DNA of 52,718 nt from a virus, in IMG/VR virus record IMGVR_UViG_3300042896_001131, positions 1 to 52,718 of that record; one strand, 5' to 3'. The position numbers and the translations under genes were made by a program. Shown piece after piece: positions 33,844-44,149 of this stretch. How positions within the stretch are numbered: position 1 is the first letter of the stretch; each line of letters begins with the position of its first letter. The notes beneath the pieces were generated by a model. It saw nothing but the letters and a program-made list of their open reading frames with translations, made no database searches and had not been told where the DNA came from.

Positions 33844-36800
33844 TTAGTTTGTTATAAGAATAGTATTAGTATCAACTTGAACAACAATAGCATTATTCAT
33901 AGCAGTGATTAATAGAGCATCATCATCACGTTGTACAAGAATTTCCGATTCATTTTTATTTAAGCGAGCACTAGCACCTGGAGCAGCGATTAGTACAGCA
34001 GCATCATCACGTTGAATCAGATTATTATGATGATTATGTGTAACGAGAATACGTTTAATATTGGTATTAATCAACCTAGCAAGTAGATCAGCATTAATAC
34101 TACAAGCATTATTTGCTGTTATAGCAGCAGAAATAACAATAGCGGTAGATAGATTACAGGTACTCGTTGCGATTACACTAAGAGCAGTGGCAAGTTGCAC
34201 TTTGGTGTTTAGTTCCGGAGAGGAGACAGCAGTATTAACAACACCAGAACTAATTAAAACAATACCAGTGTTTAATTGAGCTGCATTAGATACAATACAA
34301 GTATCAGTTGATGTTAGATAGATATTTGTATCAATGGTTAATGCAGTAACAGATGTTTGAGTTGTTGCACGAGCATTTAGATATACTCTAGTATCAAGAA
34401 CAGCACTGCTATTTACCAAGGATTGAGCAGTTGCTGTTATTGGCATAGCAACAGATAAATTCGCGCTTACTGTAGCAGTATCAATAACAAGAGCATTTAA
34501 CTTTATTGCAGTAGCAAGAGCAGATACACAATTAACTTGAGCAGAGCAACTTGCTCTTGCATTTATTGCAGTAACAAGAACAGCATTACTTGTAACAACA
34601 GAACTTGCATTACCAAGTAGAACAACGCCAGTATTTAATTGTCCTGCATTAGATACGTTACATGTATCGATGGCACGTAATTCAATATTAGTTTCCAGAG
34701 CAGCAGATATAGATACGATATCTGTTACATAGGCATTGGCTTTGATTGCAGTTGTTAATCTACTGTTACTAGATGTACTAGAATAAGCAGCTGCCACTAG
34801 AACAACGCCAGTATTTAATTGTGCAACATTAGATACAATGCAAGTATCTATAGACGCTAGAAGAATATTTGTTGTTAAACTAGATGTAGTAGCAGCTTGT
34901 GTGGCGACTTGTGCATTGGCTTTGATTGCAGTTGTTAATCTACTGTTACTAGATGTACTGGAATAAGCAGCTGCCACTAGAACAACGCCAGTATTTAATT
35001 GAGCTGCATTAGATACAATGCAAGTATCTACGGATGCAAGTTGTATTCTAGTTGTTAAATCTGAAGTAACAGTTACTTCATCTATTAATGTAGAATCAAG
35101 CGCAATTACACTAGTTGTTAATCTACTGTTACTAGATGTACTAGAATAAGCAGCTGCCACTAGAACAACGCCAGTATTTAATTGGGCAACATTAGATACA
35201 ATGCAAGTATCTACGGATGCAAGTTGTATTCTAGTTGTTAAATCTGATGCAGAGACAGCAAGAGCAGCGACTTGTGCATTGGCTTTGATTGCAGTGGTTA
35301 ATCTACTAATTGCTAATACTTGACAAACAGCATTACCCAATAAAACAACTTCTGTATTTAATTGAGCTGCATTAGATACAATGCAAGTATCTACGGATGC
35401 AAGTTGTATTCTAGTTGTTAAATCTGATGCAGAGGCAACAAGAGCAGCGACTTGTGCATTGGCTTTGATTGCAGTGGTTAATCTACTGTTACTAGATGTA
35501 CTAGAATAAGCAGCTGCCACTAGAACAACGCCAGTATTTAATTGAGCCGCATTAGATACAACACAGGTATCTACGGATGCAAGTTGTATTGCAGTGGTTA
35601 ATCTACTGTTACTAGATGTACTAGAATAAGCAGCTGCCACTAGAACAACACCCGTATTTAATTGGGCAACATTAGATACAATACATGTATCTACCGATGC
35701 AAGTTGTATTCTAGTTGTTAAATCTGATGCAGAGACAGCAAGAGCAGCGACTTGTGCATTGGCTTTGATTGCAGTGGTTAATCTACTGTTACTAGATGTA
35801 CTAGAATAAGCAGCTGCCACTAGAACAACTTCTGTATTTAATTGAGCTACATTAGATACAATACATGTTTCCGTAGATGTTAATTCAATGCTAGTTGTTA
35901 AATCTGATGCAGAGGCAGCAAGAGCAGCGACTTGTGCATTGGCTTTGATTGCAGTGGTTAGATTACCCAATGCAGTTGAGATGCTTGATGTATCGCTTAA
36001 CAGAACAACTTCTGTATTTAATTGAGCTACATTAGATACAATGCAAGTATCTACGGATGCAAGTTGTATTCTAGTTGTTAAATCTGATGCAGAGGCAGCA
36101 AGAGCAGCGACTTGTGCATTGGCTTTGATTGCAGTGGTTAATCTACTAATTGCTGATATTTGACAAACAGCATTACCTACTAGAACAACGCCAGTATTTA
36201 ATTGGGCAACATTAGATACAACACAGGTATCTACGGATGCAAGTTGTATTCTAGTTGTTAAATCTGATGCAGAGGCAACAAGAGCAGCGACTTGTGCATT
36301 GGCTTTGATTGCAGTGGTTAGATTACCCAATGCAGTTGAGATGCTTGATGTATCGCTTAACAGAACAACGCCAGTATTTAATTGAGCCGCATTAGATACA
36401 ATACATGTTTCCGTAGATGTTAATTCAATGCTAGTTGTTAAATCTGAAGTAACAGTTACTTCATCTATTAATGTAGAATCAAGCGCAATTACACTAGTGG
36501 TTAATCTACTAATTGCTGATATTTGACAAACAGCATTACCCAATAAAACAACTTCTGTATTTAATTGAGCCACATTAGATACAACACAGGTATCTACGGA
36601 TGCAAGTTGTATTCCGGTTGTTATGTTTGAATTTGCTACAACATTACACGATAGATTAGAATTAGCATTAATCTGTGTTAATAGATTAGGAGTAGACGTA
36701 GATACTTGACAAACAGCATTACCCAATAAAACAACTTCTGTATTTAATTGAGCTGCATTAGAAACAACACAGGTATCTACGGATGCAAGTTGTATTCCGG

Positions 36801-37758
36801 TTGTTATGTTTGAATTTGCAGTTGAGATAGTTGTTAAAGTTGCAGCTGGTTTAATGCTGGTTATTAGACCAGGAGTAGAAATAGATACTCTGTTCGCGAT
36901 GGAGCCAATTAATGGAATGCCAGTATTTAATTGAGCCGCATTAGAAACAACACATGTTTCCGTGGAAGCTAATCTAATGCGAGTTTTTAGGTTAGATTGA
37001 CTAGTAGATACAACGTTTGCTGTGCCGTTAACAGTTATACTTGTAGTTAGAGCAGAATTTGTCGATACTTGGGCGTTTATTTGCCCAAACATTCTAGAAA
37101 AATTTATTTCCGATTCACATATACATGTAACGGCAGCTCGAATTAAAATAGATGTAGATATATCTGCAAAATTTACCGTAGATATACTTGCAACAGAACT
37201 AGCTACTGTTATGCTTGTAGATAGAGCGGAATTTGATGATGTTGTATTTTGAACTGAGCCAATTAAAACTATGCCTGTATTTAATTGTGCAGCATTAGAT
37301 ACAACACAAGAATCTGTGGCATTTAATTCAATAACTGTTAATAAGTCAGATTGAGAAGAAACTGTATCTAATACATTTCCTTGCAATGTTATATTTGTAG
37401 ATAGAGTAGAATTTGCTGTAGCAATTGCAGTTAAAGTTGATGTATTCAGTTTAACTTGCGTTGCGAGATCAGCGCCACTACTTGCTAGAGAAGCAGCATG
37501 GGCAGCTAAATTTATTTGAGTATTAATTGATGCTGTAGTTAATACTAAAATATTGGTTACTGATGCAAAAAGATTTATACTCGATAATAATTTAGGAGTA
37601 GAAACTGTCGCTGTTGCTGTTGCTGTAGAATTAAATAAAATTTGAGTTGTAAGATCTGCTGCAACCGAACTTGTTGCGTTCGTAGATGTTTGTAATTCCG
37701 CTGCCGCAACGCCAGATGACGATATTGGGTTGGAACTTATTGCATAAAATCCTAGCAT
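33844..37758 (-). CDS. Giant 20-residue-repeat fibre protein (1304 residues)
   Basis: Almost the whole protein is a chain of imperfect 20-residue units with consensus L-[TN]-T-x-[IV]-x-L-x-[AS]...S-x-[AS], for example LTTRIQLASVDTCIVSNAAQ, LNTGVVLVAAAYSSTSSNSR and LTTAIKANAQVAALAASASD. The three unit types alternate in 60-residue blocks that are nearly identical in DNA in the middle of the gene (about 34700-36700). A regular beta-solenoid or triple-stranded fibre is likely. Units with TC-x-VSN and AVCQ place Cys at fixed phase. The C-terminal 90 residues are unique (LIQRDDAAVLIAAPG; ILVQRDDDALLI). Late-type box AATAAATA at 37794-37801. Confidence 0.82.
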   Translation of the reverse strand: MLGFYAISSNPISSSGVAAAELQTSTNATSSVAADLTTQILFNSTATATATVSTPKLLSSINLFASVTNILVLTTASINTQINLAAHAASLASSGADLATQVKLNTSTLTAIATANSTLSTNITLQGNVLDTVSSQSDLLTVIELNATDSCVVSNAAQLNTGIVLIGSVQNTTSSNSALSTSITVASSVASISTVNFADISTSILIRAAVTCICESEINFSRMFGQINAQVSTNSALTTSITVNGTANVVSTSQSNLKTRIRLASTETCVVSNAAQLNTGIPLIGSIANRVSISTPGLITSIKPAATLTTISTANSNITTGIQLASVDTCVVSNAAQLNTEVVLLGNAVCQVSTSTPNLLTQINANSNLSCNVVANSNITTGIQLASVDTCVVSNVAQLNTEVVLLGNAVCQISAISRLTTSVIALDSTLIDEVTVTSDLTTSIELTSTETCIVSNAAQLNTGVVLLSDTSSISTALGNLTTAIKANAQVAALVASASDLTTRIQLASVDTCVVSNVAQLNTGVVLVGNAVCQISAISRLTTAIKANAQVAALAASASDLTTRIQLASVDTCIVSNVAQLNTEVVLLSDTSSISTALGNLTTAIKANAQVAALAASASDLTTSIELTSTETCIVSNVAQLNTEVVLVAAAYSSTSSNSRLTTAIKANAQVAALAVSASDLTTRIQLASVDTCIVSNVAQLNTGVVLVAAAYSSTSSNSRLTTAIQLASVDTCVVSNAAQLNTGVVLVAAAYSSTSSNSRLTTAIKANAQVAALVASASDLTTRIQLASVDTCIVSNAAQLNTEVVLLGNAVCQVLAISRLTTAIKANAQVAALAVSASDLTTRIQLASVDTCIVSNVAQLNTGVVLVAAAYSSTSSNSRLTTSVIALDSTLIDEVTVTSDLTTRIQLASVDTCIVSNAAQLNTGVVLVAAAYSSTSSNSRLTTAIKANAQVATQAATTSSLTTNILLASIDTCIVSNVAQLNTGVVLVAAAYSSTSSNSRLTTAIKANAYVTDIVSISAALETNIELRAIDTCNVSNAGQLNTGVVLLGNASSVVTSNAVLVTAINARASCSAQVNCVSALATAIKLNALVIDTATVSANLSVAMPITATAQSLVNSSAVLDTRVYLNARATTQTSVTALTIDTNIYLTSTDTCIVSNAAQLNTGIVLISSGVVNTAVSSPELNTKVQLATALSVIATSTCNLSTAIVISAAITANNACSINADLLARLINTNIKRILVTHNHHNNLIQRDDAAVLIAAPGASARLNKNESEILVQRDDDALLITAMNNAIVVQVDTNTILITN
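34620..36800. repeat. Long near-identical DNA repeats inside the fibre gene
   Basis: Blocks of 60, 180 and 240 bp recur with few changes; for example the stretch GTTAATCTACTGTTACTAGA occurs repeatedly between about 34755 and 35795. All periods keep the frame, so recombination can change fibre length. Confidence 0.85.
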
Positions 37759-37868: not shown

Positions 37869-40298
37869 ATGGCTTTACAGTTAAACGATAGAGTAAAAGA
37901 ATCCTCTATTACAACTGGAGTTGTGCCTATTGTATTAGCTGGAGCGCCAACTGGATATCAGAACGTTGCTTCAAGCATTTCAACATCCAATACATTTCCA
38001 TATGTTGTAGAATTAGTAGGTGGATCTGAATGGGAAATTGGTATAGGGCAATATATCAGTGCTAATAATTCTATAATAAGAACTCAAATATTAAATAGTT
38101 CAAATAGTAGTAATATTGTAAATTTTTCTGCTGGAACTAAAAACGTATTCATATCTGTTCCAGCTGCATACATTGCATTAGCTGTAAGAGGGTTATCTCA
38201 ATTTGCAAATACTACTGGTGCTGAATTAGCATCGATTATTTCCGATACGACTGGAACTGGAAATCTAGTATTTGCAAATAATGCTGTTTTTGTTACTCCT
38301 ACTATTGGAATCGCAAATGGAACCTCATTAAATCTTACTACTGCAATATCTTCTAATTTATCTTTAGTTGGTCCGAGTTTATCGGCAAATTTAACTAGAT
38401 TTCCGAATGCATTAGCTGTTGTATCAAATACGGCAGTTAGCTTACAACAAAACGAAACTCATAATATTGGGTTAATTGCAGAGGGGGTCGCTAATGCTTC
38501 TAATACTTCTATCTATGGTATCGGCGTTTATGGTGTTGGTTATACTAACGCCGGAACTCGTTCTGGAGGGGTAGTTGGTGAAGGTCACGTAACTTCTTCT
38601 AGTGATGGCGGTAGCGCCATAGGCGTTCGTGGTTATGCCCATGATATTCATGCTGGTGGATTAAACGTTGGTCTATATGGCGATGCAACTAATGGATCTG
38701 CTAACTATGCGCTGGCAATGAATAATGGTAATATTTTATCTAACTTTGTACAGACATGGTATTTAAATGGTGGATTAACATTTACTGGTGGCGCAAATAC
38801 AGTTACTATTCCAAACCTAGTTTCAAGTAATGTCTATTTTTCTTCTGCAAATGGTACTCAGCCATTTACTGTTGTATCTAATACCTTAGTATCAAACCTT
38901 AATTCAGATCTCCTTGACGGACAACATGGAACATATTATACTGGATTAACAGGAACTGCATTCGGGCAGGCTAATACTGGCGTGGCCATAGGGCAAGGAG
39001 CTTTTGCTCAAGCTAATGCAGCTTATAATACTGCCAATACAAAATTCTCTGCTAATGGCGGAACGATTTTTGGATCAGTAACGATTACAACAGATTTAAA
39101 TGTTAATGGTAATGTTTATTTAGGTGGAAATGTTACTACATTAAGTTCAAATAACCTTTCAATTACTGATCCATTAATTTATTTGGCTGAAGATAATCCA
39201 TCTAATTTACAAGATATTGGTATTGTTGGTAGTTTTACTGGCAATAAATATCAACACACGGGAATTGTTAGGGATGCAACTGATGGAGTTTGGAAATTAT
39301 TTTCTAACGTATCTGCTGAACCTACAACTACTATAGATTTTTCTAGTGACGTAATATACGATCCATTAAAAGTTGGATCTATAATAACATCTAATGCAGT
39401 TTTTTCTGTTGCAAATGGAACAGTTCCATTTATTGTTTCTTCTAATACTTTAATACCAAACCTTAATGTTGATTTACTTGATGGTCAGCATGGAACATAT
39501 TATACTGGGTTAACCGGATCAGCTTGGAATACAGCCAATACAGCAGTAACCGTTGCTCAAGCAGCATATACTGCTGCGAATACTGGTGTAACAGTTGGAC
39601 AAGCAGCATTTAATACAGCAAATACAGAAACTATAGGTCGGGCTGCATTTACTGCTGCGAATACTGGTATAACAGTTGGACAAGCAGCATATACTGCTGC
39701 GAATACAGAAACTATAGGTCGGGCTGCATTTAATCAGGCTAATTCTGCTTATAATACAGCAAATACAATACCTGCATTAATTTCTACATCTATACAAACT
39801 ACAAATTATACTGCTGCTGTTAATAATTTAGTAAGATGTAATACAGCTGCAGGAGCATTTTCAGTAACATTCCCCGCTAGTCCAGCTGATGGATCGACTA
39901 TTGCTATTCTTGATGTTGCTGGAACATTTGCTACAAATAATTTAACATTATTGCCAAACGGTAAAACTATTGAATCTGACGCAACGTCAGTTATATTAGA
40001 TTTAAATGGTTCTTATGCATCATTTGTTTACAACTCTGCTACTTCTAATTGGAAATTGTTAGAAACTCCTACCGGAACAGTAGTTCCTTCAGCAGCAGGC
40101 AATACCGGAAACGTATTAACCAGCGATGGTTCTAATTGGGTATCATTAACATTACCTAACACTGGAATAATAATCACCCAATCCGCATTTAATCAAGCTA
40201 ATGCAGCTTATACTCAAGCTAATACTGGAGTAACATTAGCTCAATCAGTATTAGCTAAAGCTCCAGATTTTTTACTTTTTAATTTAGGAATCATTTAA
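37869..40298 (+). CDS. Tail fibre protein, 809 residues
   Basis: The N-terminus (MALQLNDRVKESSITTGVVP, then SEWEIGIGQYISANNSIIRT) is the attachment domain typical of cyanophage-type fibres. Internal repeats include twin phrases LNVDLLDGQHGTYYTGLTG/LNSDLLDGQHGTYYTGLTG, a fibre motif of T4 gp36/gp37-like proteins, and alanine/asparagine repeats (QANAAYNTAN; TAANTGVTVGQAAF). NLSITDPLIYLAEDNPSNLQ is another fibre signature. The C-terminus ends SVLAKAPDFLLFNLGII. Its stop overlaps the start of a gene of foreign composition. Confidence 0.88.
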   Translation: MALQLNDRVKESSITTGVVPIVLAGAPTGYQNVASSISTSNTFPYVVELVGGSEWEIGIGQYISANNSIIRTQILNSSNSSNIVNFSAGTKNVFISVPAAYIALAVRGLSQFANTTGAELASIISDTTGTGNLVFANNAVFVTPTIGIANGTSLNLTTAISSNLSLVGPSLSANLTRFPNALAVVSNTAVSLQQNETHNIGLIAEGVANASNTSIYGIGVYGVGYTNAGTRSGGVVGEGHVTSSSDGGSAIGVRGYAHDIHAGGLNVGLYGDATNGSANYALAMNNGNILSNFVQTWYLNGGLTFTGGANTVTIPNLVSSNVYFSSANGTQPFTVVSNTLVSNLNSDLLDGQHGTYYTGLTGTAFGQANTGVAIGQGAFAQANAAYNTANTKFSANGGTIFGSVTITTDLNVNGNVYLGGNVTTLSSNNLSITDPLIYLAEDNPSNLQDIGIVGSFTGNKYQHTGIVRDATDGVWKLFSNVSAEPTTTIDFSSDVIYDPLKVGSIITSNAVFSVANGTVPFIVSSNTLIPNLNVDLLDGQHGTYYTGLTGSAWNTANTAVTVAQAAYTAANTGVTVGQAAFNTANTETIGRAAFTAANTGITVGQAAYTAANTETIGRAAFNQANSAYNTANTIPALISTSIQTTNYTAAVNNLVRCNTAAGAFSVTFPASPADGSTIAILDVAGTFATNNLTLLPNGKTIESDATSVILDLNGSYASFVYNSATSNWKLLETPTGTVVPSAAGNTGNVLTSDGSNWVSLTLPNTGIIITQSAFNQANAAYTQANTGVTLAQSVLAKAPDFLLFNLGII

Positions 40299-40708
40299 TG
40301 TCTACTTCAGCAAATTACGCTGCTACTCCCAAGAACGGTAGCGCACAAATCGCAACAGCAAATACTAATCGAGATGGTACGGGTACGCTAGGCGTTGTTT
40401 TTACAGCAGGCGCAAGCGGCTCGCGTATCGATTCGCTAAATATTCAAGCGACAGGAACGACTACTGCGGGAATGATCCGATTCTTTATATCGAATGATGC
40501 GGGCGCAACAAAACGCCTTATTTACGAACAACCCGTTTTAGCCATCACAGCAAGCGCAACCGTTCCCGTGTGGTCTGTGACGCTTACCTCGCAAAATGCG
40601 TCATTTATGCAAAACGGCTTAGTATTGCAAGCGAATGCAATTCTTTACGCTTCAACAAACAACGCTGAAACTTTTAATGTAACCCCAATTAATGCAGGTG
40701 ACTTTTAA
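40298..40708 (+). CDS. Tail protein of foreign composition, 136 residues
   Basis: MSTSANYAATPKNGSAQIAT, then GTLGVVFTAGASGSRIDSLN and NGLVLQANAILYAST. This is a beta-sandwich tail protein of the kind common in prophages and siphoviruses of Proteobacteria. The DNA is clearly more GC-rich than the neighbouring phage genes, with GCG, CGC and CTT codons seldom used elsewhere. It starts at the TAATG junction with the phage fibre and forms a cassette with the next two genes. Confidence 0.72.
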   Translation: MSTSANYAATPKNGSAQIATANTNRDGTGTLGVVFTAGASGSRIDSLNIQATGTTTAGMIRFFISNDAGATKRLIYEQPVLAITASATVPVWSVTLTSQNASFMQNGLVLQANAILYASTNNAETFNVTPINAGDF

Positions 40709-41784
40709 TGAATAAAGGAAATTACGGCTATTCTTTGCCGCCTAACGCGCCTACTCGTGTTGCACCTCCCGAATGGCGGTCATTTAAGCTAATTACTGCT
40801 ACGACATCGGCAGAGGTTGTGCCACAGAATGTCTATCAAATGTTTGTTCATGTGTTTGGTGGCGGCGGTAATGGTGGTACAAAAGCAGGTGGTGGCGGCG
40901 GTGGCTTTGCGGCGGGAATTATTGACGTCATTCCGGGGCAATTATTGTCAACTATTACCGTTGGAGCGCAGGGTGGTACGTCGTCTTATGGAACGTTGTT
41001 ATCGGCGACGGGCGGCACTAATGGGGTGACGACTACGGTTGGAACAGGTGGAACAGGTACAGCATCGTCAAATTTACGAAGGGTAAAAACTGCAACTGGC
41101 GGCAGTGGTGGGTTTACGCTATCTACAGGAGTTACTGGTGGAGGCGCGGCTGGTAGCTTATATGGTAACGGTGGGGCAGGAGGCGTTATTAATTTTGGGT
41201 CGGGGAGTTCGGCAACCGGTGCCGGTGGTTTTGGTGGCAATGGTGGAGACGATGTAGTCGCTGGCTATACAGGTGGTGGGGGTATTTTTAACGCAGGTAA
41301 GAATGACACAGGTGGTGCTTATTCTGGCGGAGGTGGAAGCGCGTCAATGGGAATGGTTCCAACATCGCCTACAGCTAACGGCGGCAGTGGTGGCGGTGGA
41401 TATGGGGCTGCTGGTGGAAGTGGAGCTACAGCATCACTACCTGCTCAAAACGGTATAGGAGGGAAACCCTTAGTCGGAGCTTTGGCGTATTTAAATTTAG
41501 CTTTATCTGGTAGCGGCGGCGGAGGCGCAACATCCACATTTTATAAAGGTGGAGCTGGAGCAGATGGTGGCGGTGGCGGTGGCGGTGGCGGTAGCGGTGG
41601 TTTTGGTGGCGGTGGCGGTGGCGGTAGCGGTAGCGGTGGTAGTGGTGGTTTTGGTGGCGGCGGTGGTGGTGGTACTGGTACTGGCGGTAGTGGTGGTTTT
41701 GGTGGCGGCGGTGGTGGTGGTACTGATACTGTCGGTAGTGGTGGCGCAGGTGCAGTTATTTTAGCTTGGACGGAGGGATATTAA
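40708..41784 (+). CDS. Glycine-rich tail-tip adhesin-like protein
   Basis: A 358-residue protein. After an N-terminal beta region (FKLITATTSAEVVPQNVYQM, VFGGGGNGGT) it is dominated by polyglycine blocks; the C-terminal half repeats GGFGGGGGGG and GGSGGFGGGG. Gly-rich motifs recall receptor-binding gp38-type adhesins of T-even phages and the glycine-rich tips of other fibres, where polyglycine helices pack together. Composition is GC-rich, unlike most of the window. The near-perfect DNA repeats at 41570-41740 allow slippage. Confidence 0.68.
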   Translation: MNKGNYGYSLPPNAPTRVAPPEWRSFKLITATTSAEVVPQNVYQMFVHVFGGGGNGGTKAGGGGGGFAAGIIDVIPGQLLSTITVGAQGGTSSYGTLLSATGGTNGVTTTVGTGGTGTASSNLRRVKTATGGSGGFTLSTGVTGGGAAGSLYGNGGAGGVINFGSGSSATGAGGFGGNGGDDVVAGYTGGGGIFNAGKNDTGGAYSGGGGSASMGMVPTSPTANGGSGGGGYGAAGGSGATASLPAQNGIGGKPLVGALAYLNLALSGSGGGGATSTFYKGGAGADGGGGGGGGGSGGFGGGGGGGSGSGGSGGFGGGGGGGTGTGGSGGFGGGGGGGTDTVGSGGAGAVILAWTEGY

Positions 41785-42177
41785 ATGAAAGCATGGATTG
41801 AAAACGAAAAAATAAGAGATATTGCGCAGGGCGACCCGCTTGAAATATATCACCCAGATATTGCCAATCTTTACACCGTTGAAGTGCCTGACGATGCCGT
41901 AAATGGCGATGGCTGGGTAAACGGCAAATTAGTAAAACCAGAGCCTCTACCCGAACCGCCTTTACCACCTCGCACAATCTCACTTGATGACGTGCGCAAG
42001 AACTTAACCTTTGCAGAAAAGGCTAAATGGGATAGCGACAAAACTCCCGAGATTATCACGGCAAAAATTGAGTTTGCGCAACCGCTTGAAGTCGAACCTG
42101 CTACTGAAGTTTTGCAGTTTTTAGTTGATAGCGGCTCGATTTTTCAAGCGTCTATGACTAATATATTAGGGGCATAA
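41785..42177 (+). CDS. Tail-fibre assembly/chaperone-like protein
   Basis: A 130-residue protein, MKAWIENEKIRDIAQGDPLE, with a Pro-rich linker (KPEPLPEPPLPPRTISLDD) and a helical C-terminus (VRKNLTFAEKAKWDSDKTPE). A small beta N-terminal domain, proline linker and short helical end at the last position of a fibre cassette are typical of tail-fibre assembly chaperones. Base composition matches the two preceding foreign genes; the native AT-rich composition returns after its stop. Confidence 0.7.
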   Translation: MKAWIENEKIRDIAQGDPLEIYHPDIANLYTVEVPDDAVNGDGWVNGKLVKPEPLPEPPLPPRTISLDDVRKNLTFAEKAKWDSDKTPEIITAKIEFAQPLEVEPATEVLQFLVDSGSIFQASMTNILGA

Positions 42178-42236: not shown

Positions 42237-42566
42237 ATGTCAAAAACTTTTTCAAGTATATTACGAACTGGTAATGGTACCACAACGCAAGGACATGGGC
42301 AACAATCTTTTTCTTTTTCTAATGGAGGAACTGGGGGAACTGGAGGAATTGGCGTTGGTGGATTTAGAGGCGGTGGTTCCGCAGGAACTAGTTATGCTGC
42401 CGGTGGTGGTGGCGGATATTCTGGTGGTGGTGGCGGTGGTTTACAAACTTGTTCGTGTGATGATATGGGTAATGGTGGCGCTGGTGGTAGCTATTCTTCA
42501 ACAACATATGCATTTACAGCGTTAGGAACTACTGGTCATGGTTCAGTTTTAGTTGAAAAACTATAA
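42237..42566 (+). CDS. Small glycine-rich adhesin-like protein
   Basis: A 109-residue protein, MSKTFSSILRTGNGTTTQGH, with polyglycine blocks (GGTGGTGGIGVGGFRGGGSA; YAAGGGGGYSGGGGGG) and two Cys in TCSCDD. Its codons are AT-rich and native, unlike the larger Gly-rich protein at 40708. Probably a second, phage-type receptor tip; possibly the original adhesin that the imported cassette supplements. Confidence 0.6.
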   Translation: MSKTFSSILRTGNGTTTQGHGQQSFSFSNGGTGGTGGIGVGGFRGGGSAGTSYAAGGGGGYSGGGGGGLQTCSCDDMGNGGAGGSYSSTTYAFTALGTTGHGSVLVEKL

Positions 42567-42576
42567 AGGTGAAAAT

Positions 42577-42771
42577 ATGATAAACGAAAATATGATTAAT
42601 AAAAATTGGGAAGATTTCCCATTTATTGATAAAGAAGATGGAGAAAGAAAAAAAGCCATATGTTTACAGTGCGAATATATGGTAGAACATTTAACATGCT
42701 CTCTTTGTGATTGTTTTTTACCAAGTAAAATACAATTATTTAAATCTACTTGTAGTTCAAATAAATGGTAA
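42577..42771 (+). CDS. Four-cysteine zinc-binding-like small protein
   Basis: A 64-residue protein, MINENMINKNWEDFPFIDKE, with CLQC near residue 31, CSLCDCFLPSK and a final Cys near KW. The pattern CxxC...CxxCxC...C...W matches a small protein family of T4-like phages (I recall DUF6171). I start at 42577 (AAGGTGAAAAT upstream) rather than 42553. A terminator follows. Confidence 0.75.
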   Translation: MINENMINKNWEDFPFIDKEDGERKKAICLQCEYMVEHLTCSLCDCFLPSKIQLFKSTCSSNKW

Positions 42772-42775
42772 AAAG

Positions 42776-42796
42776 GGGAGCCGAAGCTCCCTTTTT
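42776..42796. terminator. Bidirectional terminator
   Basis: GGGAGC-CGAA-GCTCCC then TTTTT, the same core sequence as the terminator at 699-719. Confidence 0.9.
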
Positions 42797-42800
42797 ATTC

Positions 42801-43247
42801 TTAGTTATCCAGCTGGATAGATAAAGCTGCTGCCGAGAATGTCGGAGCCGCGTCACCGTCATTTACAGTCTTTTGGGTTGTTAAACTTCCATAAAACAAT
42901 AGATTTCCGCCAGTAACAGCATCATACATTCCAAATGAAGTAATAACGCCCCAGTTTGCTCCAGTTGGAACAGGAAAGGTAATTGCATTAATGTTGTATG
43001 TTGTTCCAGATGTACCCGAACTAGTTGAAGTTGAGCTAGAACTATCAGTTCCTGACCAATTTAACAGTGATGATGCAATACGCACTCTAGAATAACCTCC
43101 ACCAGAAACTTCAACTTGTCCTGTATTAGCATCATTTGTTGATGTTGTTAATAATCCAATCCAAGTATTTGCTGGTGCTGTATATGCTTGTTGTCTAAAA
43201 ATGTAATCAATTAATTTATTCTCAAGATAATTCGACATTGCGCTCAT
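42801..43247 (-). CDS. Conserved phage tail/virion protein, 148 residues
   Basis: MSAMSNYLENKLIDYIFRQQ, then APANTWIGLLTTSTNDANTG, VSGGGYSRVRI, ITFPVPTGANWGVITSFGMY and a closing strand SAAALSIQLDN. This layout is common in phage structural proteins, where a short N-terminal helix is followed by a beta sandwich. AAGGAGTTATAC precedes the start and an exact late box lies 12 bases upstream. Exact role unknown. Confidence 0.75.
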   Translation of the reverse strand: MSAMSNYLENKLIDYIFRQQAYTAPANTWIGLLTTSTNDANTGQVEVSGGGYSRVRIASSLLNWSGTDSSSSTSTSSGTSGTTYNINAITFPVPTGANWGVITSFGMYDAVTGGNLLFYGSLTTQKTVNDGDAAPTFSAAALSIQLDN

Positions 43248-43258
43248 GTATAACTCCT

Positions 43259-43266
43259 TATTTATA
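43259..43266 (-). promoter_or_regulatory. Late promoter TATAAATA
   Basis: Exact late box on the minus strand, 12 bases before the start at 43247; it would produce a very short leader containing the AAGGAG site. Confidence 0.6.
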
Positions 43267-43298
43267 TATTATTTAAAGTATTTAGTATTTAGTATTTA

Positions 43299-44081
43299 TT
43301 ACTTATGTTTAAGCGATTCTAAATATTCATCTGATTTCATATACGCACCTTTTGGTAATTTTAATCCGTTAGCTTTGTATAATTGTTTTATTTCTTGATA
43401 AATGGGTCTAGCTGCTTTTGATTTTTGAAATGTACCATGTAATCCTGGATTATTATTTACAAAAGCATTTTTTCCATTTTCAATTTGTTTATAAACTGGG
43501 TTTGTATCCCCTAAGAAAAAATGCGTTCCATCTTTTATTTTTGCTTTAGATGGATGATTATCATTTAAAAAATTATGCGTGCCGTTTTTAAGTCTTTTTT
43601 GTGCTAATTCTCGCTGAAATTCCCCGCCAATCCAATGATGCGTTCTATCTTTAAGCCTTTTTTGTTGAATTTTTCTTTGAAATTCTCCACCAATCCAATG
43701 ATGTGTTCCATCATTAACTCTTTTTTGTTGTATTTTTTTCTGTTGTTCAGAAGTTGTTCCGCCATCCAATCCATTTTCTAATTTTAAATTAGCCCATTCT
43801 TTAGATTTAACTATATTATATTTTTCTGATAAATTTATTGCTGTAGCAACTAATATATTAATATCATTAAATAATTCGCACCATATTGTATCAACATCTC
43901 TGCCATGTTTTTTTAAATGGGATAACCAATAATCTCCAGATCCGTTATATTTAATTGGATTTTTACAATTAGTTTTACACAAATATTTTAAACCTGTTAA
44001 TTTATGTTGTTTTATCATTAAATATGTTGGTTTAAAATTTTTTATTTGTTGTTCTGTTATATAAATATTTTCGCTAGACAT
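43299..44081 (-). CDS. Homing endonuclease, degenerate GIY-YIG type with repeat tail
   Basis: A 260-residue protein. The N-terminal part (TYLMIKQHKLTGLKYLCKTN, NPIKYNGSGDYWLSHLKKHG) matches phage Seg-like proteins in which GIY-YIG has become degenerate, followed by the conserved SKEWANLKLENGLDGG. The C-terminal half holds five NUMOD-like repeats (DGTHHWIGGEFQRKIQQKRL; NGTHNFLNDNHPSKAKIKDG). I start at 44081 (MSSENIYITE) because GGAGG lies just before it; the ATG at 44099 is earlier in the same frame. It carries the same leader hairpin as the HNH genes, although the protein family differs. Confidence 0.78.
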   Translation of the reverse strand: MSSENIYITEQQIKNFKPTYLMIKQHKLTGLKYLCKTNCKNPIKYNGSGDYWLSHLKKHGRDVDTIWCELFNDINILVATAINLSEKYNIVKSKEWANLKLENGLDGGTTSEQQKKIQQKRVNDGTHHWIGGEFQRKIQQKRLKDRTHHWIGGEFQRELAQKRLKNGTHNFLNDNHPSKAKIKDGTHFFLGDTNPVYKQIENGKNAFVNNNPGLHGTFQKSKAARPIYQEIKQLYKANGLKLPKGAYMKSDEYLESLKHK

Positions 44082-44109
44082 TATTCCTCCATATTTCATA
44101 ATGTTTAGT

Positions 44110-44139
44110 GCTGGTGGGATGTAGGAGTCCGCGACCAGC
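44110..44139 (-). ncRNA. HNH-leader hairpin, copy 3
   Basis: On the minus strand: GCTGGT (44139-44134), an 18-nt loop starting CGCGG and ending CCC, ACCAGC (44115-44110), then ACTAAACATT. Stem position 4 differs from copies 1 and 2 with pairing kept. Confidence 0.75.
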
Positions 44140-44149
44140 TTTTTTTTTA

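Follow-up and report, generated by a model that had tools for sequence, protein, structure and literature searches.

A probable exchangeable receptor-binding tip, with its fibre tag, in a T4-like phage genome

How does a T4-like phage come to carry, directly behind its distal tail-fibre gene, three genes whose codons are not those of the rest of its DNA, and what might these genes do at the tail tip? The window analysed here, by which we mean the whole stretch of 52,718 nt, is part of a T4-like phage genome, with genes for topoisomerase II subunits, single-strand-binding protein and helicase-loader proteins. A reading made from the sequence alone had proposed that the three genes are a tail-tip cassette captured from another phage and joined to the native fibre gene. 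The foreign origin, the tail-tip nature, the source in another phage lineage and the junction to the fibre gene are all supported by the comparisons below. We consider it likely that the cassette and the very end of the fibre gene together form a horizontally acquired, exchangeable receptor-binding tip, composed of a fibre tag, an adaptor, a Gly-rich adhesin and a putative chaperone (Table 1).

Table 1. Features of the tip region, with window positions and codon statistics (LLR, in nats: codon model of donor-type contigs versus codon model of the window; positive values prefer the donor model)
Feature	Position	Strand	GC3	Codon z-score	Codon LLR	Basis or remark
Native distal tail-fibre gene minus last 12 codons	37869..40260	+			-98	AT-rich
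Fibre C-terminal tag PDFLLFNLGII	40261..40297	+				Shared-DNA edge at 40258-40263
Putative adaptor, 136 aa, all-beta, foreign codons	40298..40708	+	0.36	-6.7	21	AlphaFold
Putative receptor-binding adhesin, 358 aa, 37% Gly	40708..41784	+	0.32	-6.9	29	PF21722 below cut-off
Putative tip chaperone, 130 aa	41785..42177	+	0.39	-6.7	17	Shared DNA stops at 42170
Native small Gly-rich ORF after cassette	42237..42566	+	0.14	+1.2	-11	
Stretch where similarity to near-identical sisters resumes	42769..43302	.				DNA comparison
Pfam Gp80 podophage fibre I protein	42801-43247	-				Inside 42769..43302

Composition, edges and source of the unit

The three cassette genes stand out from the window in GC and codon use, with GC3 of 0.32 to 0.39 against a background of ~0.17 (0.17 to 0.18 as predicted from the window codon tables). 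They have the three lowest codon z-scores of the 48 window genes, the next lowest being -5.4, and the codon model of donor-type contigs is preferred for each of them, while the window model is preferred for the fibre gene before the junction and for the ORF that follows the cassette. A shift at the TAATG of 40298, with a return after 42177, had been proposed; GC and codon use bear out the shift, but the true left edge lies at about 40261. Total GC stays high up to ~42500 because the ORF at 42237-42566 is Gly-rich, though its codons are native.

A composition of this kind might instead reflect old vertical inheritance with selection acting on these particular genes, since genes for Gly-rich proteins have more G and C at the first two codon positions. 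GC3 is raised too, however, and neither the adaptor (8% Gly) nor the third protein (5% Gly) is Gly-rich, whereas the adjoining native ORF, which is, keeps a GC3 like that of the window. A pure glycine effect is ruled out by GC3 together with the synonymous-codon test. Old descent should also have left homologous genes of the same composition in all relatives; the sister phages have different, AT-rich tips (GC3 0.14-0.24), unrelated to the cassette, and this comparison already contradicts the vertical reading, which we regard as almost certainly wrong.

The same genes are present in virus contigs L003-L009. These donor-type contigs are of a small phage type of ~40% GC and encode an endolysin, a dUTPase, a thymidylate synthase and another tail fibre. 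The DNA of L006 is 96.4% identical to that of the window over 40261-42170, and other donor-type contigs have the left edge, the right edge or both in common with the window. Wherever the donor-type contigs span the side in question, the alignments show the left edge at 40258-40263 and the right edge at 42170. Outside the unit, the donor-type contigs, including L006, of which only 6 kb were compared, showed no long stretch of DNA matching the window. The left edge falls 37 nt inside the fibre gene, the shared DNA including the codons for the last 11 fibre residues, and the unit, starting at 40261, is thus slightly larger than three genes. The sequence-only reading had likened the cassette to prophage tail genes and looked to a methanotroph host. 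The nearest matches proved to be virus contigs; in bacterial genomes we found no more than 20 homologues of the adaptor, all distant (identity up to 58%) and scattered, which give no pointer to a methanotroph or to any other host. A DNA search against annotated phages returned no match.

Within the unit, too, the history is mosaic, and identity to L006 is uneven along it. It is 99.5% for the DNA of the adhesin gene, 97-99% for the adaptor gene save for a block at 40441-40540 with 84%, and 89-92% for the third gene; in the closest donor-type contigs, identity of the third protein is 88-93%. The tag has the same amino acids in both and four synonymous codon differences, so that a crossover may have taken place within the tag, or the tag may derive from an earlier exchange. 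Between L005 and L006, the adaptor is 99.8% shared and the adhesin only 73%; by this comparison, adhesins change faster than adaptors. The pattern of divergence therefore shows that adhesin alleles move between otherwise similar modules, as would be expected of the part that meets the receptor.

Could the small phages have taken the unit from T4-like phages instead? For the adhesin allele, an identity of 99.5% alone cannot tell the direction. Against such a reverse transfer, which we find highly improbable, the codon use of the unit is usual for the small contigs and unusual for the window, and the unit, present in several small contigs, was absent from every T4-like sister record searched. 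An assembly chimera, in which small-phage reads were joined into a T4-like contig, would mimic acquisition altogether. The junction k-mers were found in no other IMG/VR contig, and the junctions therefore rest on one assembly; moreover, metagenome 3300044655 is the source both of donor-type contig L007 and of L239, a sister 98.7% identical to the window, a co-occurrence that also counts in favour of the exchange. A chimera would nevertheless need two joins at functional places, one of them in frame within a tag that has kept AT-rich codons; and the sequences of the adaptor and third genes are several to over 10% away from those of all donor contigs, which makes these two genes no copies of a known contig. 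We judge this origin to be very unlikely.

The tip slot in sister phages

Acquisition from another lineage leaves the question of what, if anything, the unit displaced. Over most of 44.1-52.7 kb, three sister contigs (L226, L228 and L229) are 93-99%, mostly 96-99%, identical in DNA to the window, and their similarity ends leftward at 42769. Their AT-rich tip genes (GC3 mostly 0.13-0.22) are unrelated to the cassette, and an adaptor homologue is absent from all three, as contigs that may be fragments. On the other side of the slot, fibre residues 1-141 of sister L091 are 76% identical to those of the window fibre, and homology of the fibre to sisters continues up to about 40070. The DNA match of L188 runs to 40069, beyond which its fibre ends in NFLLMGA and is followed by different small and large proteins. 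In L095 and L096, the upstream genes and the fibre N-terminus are shared, and the slot holds a fibre, a small, a large and a fourth protein in that order, the fourth protein of L095 matching PHROG tail fibre assembly. The ORF after the cassette has a start like that of MAKSLSNIIRTG-type genes, which in the sister gene order are found after the tip module. As the same slot is taken by a different tip module in L226, L228, L229, L188, L095 and L096, these alignments indicate that the cassette is a replacement of another, equivalent tip module and not a simple addition.

The sister comparison brought several further differences to light. A 650-aa tip gene in L236 (277-2229) has a GC3 of 0.46 in a relative that is otherwise AT-rich, and is perhaps an independent acquisition of a foreign tip. 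On the minus strand at 43299-44099, the window has an intron-like DNA endonuclease gene (phrog_12324) without counterpart in L226, the alignment of which skips from 43302 to 44141; judging from the alignment, this gene was recently gained or lost. Conversely, ~620 bp of L226 (8644-9268), located between two adjoining genes, are missing from the window between 47746 and 47747. On the other flank of the fibre gene, 33844-37758 (minus strand) encodes a 1304-aa protein with many near-identical repeats (QLNTGVVLLG..., LTTAIKANAQVAAL...), which stays beside the fibre gene in sisters with repeats that differ.

The tip proteins and known systems

The first protein of the cassette belongs to a family present in hundreds of phage contigs; a single scan of virus contigs gave 262 relatives. 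Its gene is preceded by a fibre-like gene and followed by another, often Gly-rich one whose product starts with MNxG. The AlphaFold model of the adaptor is all-beta, with 10 strands and a pLDDT of 92.6. No Pfam, PHROG or NCBIfam model matches it above cut-off, and it has no sequence relative in the PDB. A fold search against the PDB gave weak matches (best E 1.5e-3, TM about 0.4), mostly to TNF/C1q-like proteins and viral jelly rolls, the best ones including chains of the TNF family and of adiponectin as well as a phage cement trimer; strong fold matches were to unnamed phage proteins only.

The second protein is a putative receptor-binding adhesin, a role suggested by its position and its Gly-rich composition. 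Its match to PF21722 (Gly_rich_2; E 2.8e-4, 21.4 bits) falls below the cut-off of 24.3, and at E 0.01 no sequence in the PDB, gp38 and other solved Gly-rich adhesins included, matches it. As its adhesin is almost the same allele as that of L006, the window phage and L006 probably bind the same receptor, and a change of host range through the new tip is plausible. The third protein had been called fibre chaperone-like, a label for which we found no family, PDB or profile support: Pfam, PHROG, NCBIfam and annotated phages gave no match, a PDB profile search gave a single weak and unrelated one, and hhalign against the sisters' fourth-position proteins, one of which matches PHROG tail fibre assembly, gave a probability of 0.6%. 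A 52% homologue comes after another Gly-rich protein in sisters L094 and L226. By position, the third protein may be a chaperone.

In T-even phages, the gene of the distal fibre (gp37) is directly followed by that of a separate Gly-rich adhesin (gp38). The window is similar in having a Gly-rich adhesin gene downstream of its distal fibre gene, but an extra 136-aa beta protein lies between fibre and adhesin. PP01 gp38 is an example of such a T-even adhesin (PMC12892980). A further comparison is Pam3, where gp24 is a fibre with a Gly-rich tip and gp25 its chaperone (PMC9608196). A Gly-rich distal domain is likewise combined there with a dedicated second protein, the chaperone, although Pam3 has its TNF-like beta domain joined to the Gly-rich domain in one protein, where the window has separate genes for a beta protein and a Gly-rich protein. 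No similarity to Tfa chaperones was detected in the third protein of the window.

Exchange itself has precedents. Alteromonas phages A5, V22 and P24 have a host-recognition module in common, and there, too, a block of tail fibre and chaperone has been exchanged across phage families (PMC10579305). In the cited part of that work, about ten neighbouring genes including the fibre are shared at lower similarity, and no adaptor of this kind is described, whereas in the window the sharing covers the last 11 fibre residues and three genes only, at 96% DNA identity. Domain shuffling in phage receptor-binding proteins likewise carries mosaic modules across taxonomic boundaries (PMC10684548); the shuffling treated in that work is of domains within proteins, whereas in the window a terminal peptide travels together with entire downstream genes. 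That host-recognition modules pass between unrelated phages is thus established knowledge (PMC10579305, PMC10684548), as is the pairing of Gly-rich adhesins with chaperones (PMC9608196). Within the family libraries and literature searched, what looks new is the uncatalogued adaptor family and the cognate fibre peptide that travels along with it. For this exchange of a receptor tip between a T4-like and a small phage, the donor-type allele, the recipient and the sister comparison are all available.

The fibre tag and its adaptor

Fibres upstream of the adaptor that are otherwise unrelated tend to end roughly in xDF[LI][LV]xxxG[IV][IV]. The upstream genes form 28 clusters with no detectable mutual similarity before the last 14 residues, and 14 of the 28 include ends of the form G[IVL][IVTSLY], compared to 13 of 1692 control ORF ends; the tag is lacking in the other half, many of these being distant homologues. 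Once upstream similarity has been removed, tag similarity still follows adaptor identity (partial r 0.54; 0 of 2000 permutations); among pairs with unrelated upstream genes the tag-adaptor correlation is 0.55, compared to 0.10 for a control stretch.

These regularities must be weighed against an ordinary exchange of tail-tip blocks, in which the tag would be a chance crossover site conserved through the ribosome-binding site of the next gene. The GGA codon of the window tag does provide a Shine-Dalgarno-like AGGA for the adaptor gene. Of 52 cases in which the genes abut (gap of at most 2 nt), 51 have Gly as residue -3, and in 36 distinct abutting cases that match the tag, the Gly codon is always GGA or GGG and the Shine-Dalgarno-like site lies inside the fibre gene in 35. 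That its codon doubles as such a site therefore accounts for part of the invariance of Gly at -3. With gaps of at least 10 nt, however, the site lies after the stop codon in 29 of 31 cases matching the tag pattern, and Gly is still found at -3 in 38 of 57, compared to a background of 15%. Residues -10 to -7 (D-F/Y-hydrophobic) also stay conserved in type although their codons vary, and the four differences between the tags of the window and L006 leave the peptide unchanged. That Gly and the residues at -10 to -7 are kept even then argues for selection on the peptide itself. Seen purely as a by-product of a ribosome site, the tag would leave part of the Gly conservation unexplained, and we consider ordinary exchange unlikely. 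In an AlphaFold model of a chain in which tag and adaptor are read through (L058), the tag is disordered, with a pLDDT of about 50, a single chain being unable to show a trimeric site.

In the exchangeable tip that we favor, the C-terminal tag of the fibre, presumably a trimer, would dock the 136-aa beta adaptor, the Gly-rich adhesin, carried by the adaptor, would make contact with the host receptor, and folding of the tip would be aided by the 130-aa third protein. Since tag and adaptor belong together, the tip could be accepted by any fibre ending in the tag, and two crossovers, one in or beside the tag and the other close to the end of the third gene, would swap tips between unrelated phages. 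Should the tag serve as a docking signal, the passage of tips between phages whose tails differ would be explained, and the compatibility of tip and fibre would become predictable.

More tentatively, and with the odds somewhat against it, one may envision a peptide code in which each small beta-adaptor family reads its own C-terminal fibre tag, making tips portable between unrelated phages. A few cases bear on this idea. A small-protein family of 108 aa (MATTYKVLGQ...) follows genes ending in NFLLMGA, VFMLMGA and NALMLMGG in unrelated phages, with two further members lacking an xLMG[A/G] ending upstream, and a third small family (MTARYP) follows STIQ[VI]G[IL][IT] endings. Members of the MATTYKVLGQ... 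family occur in L284, L285 and L188, and one is annotated by similarity as a virion structural protein.
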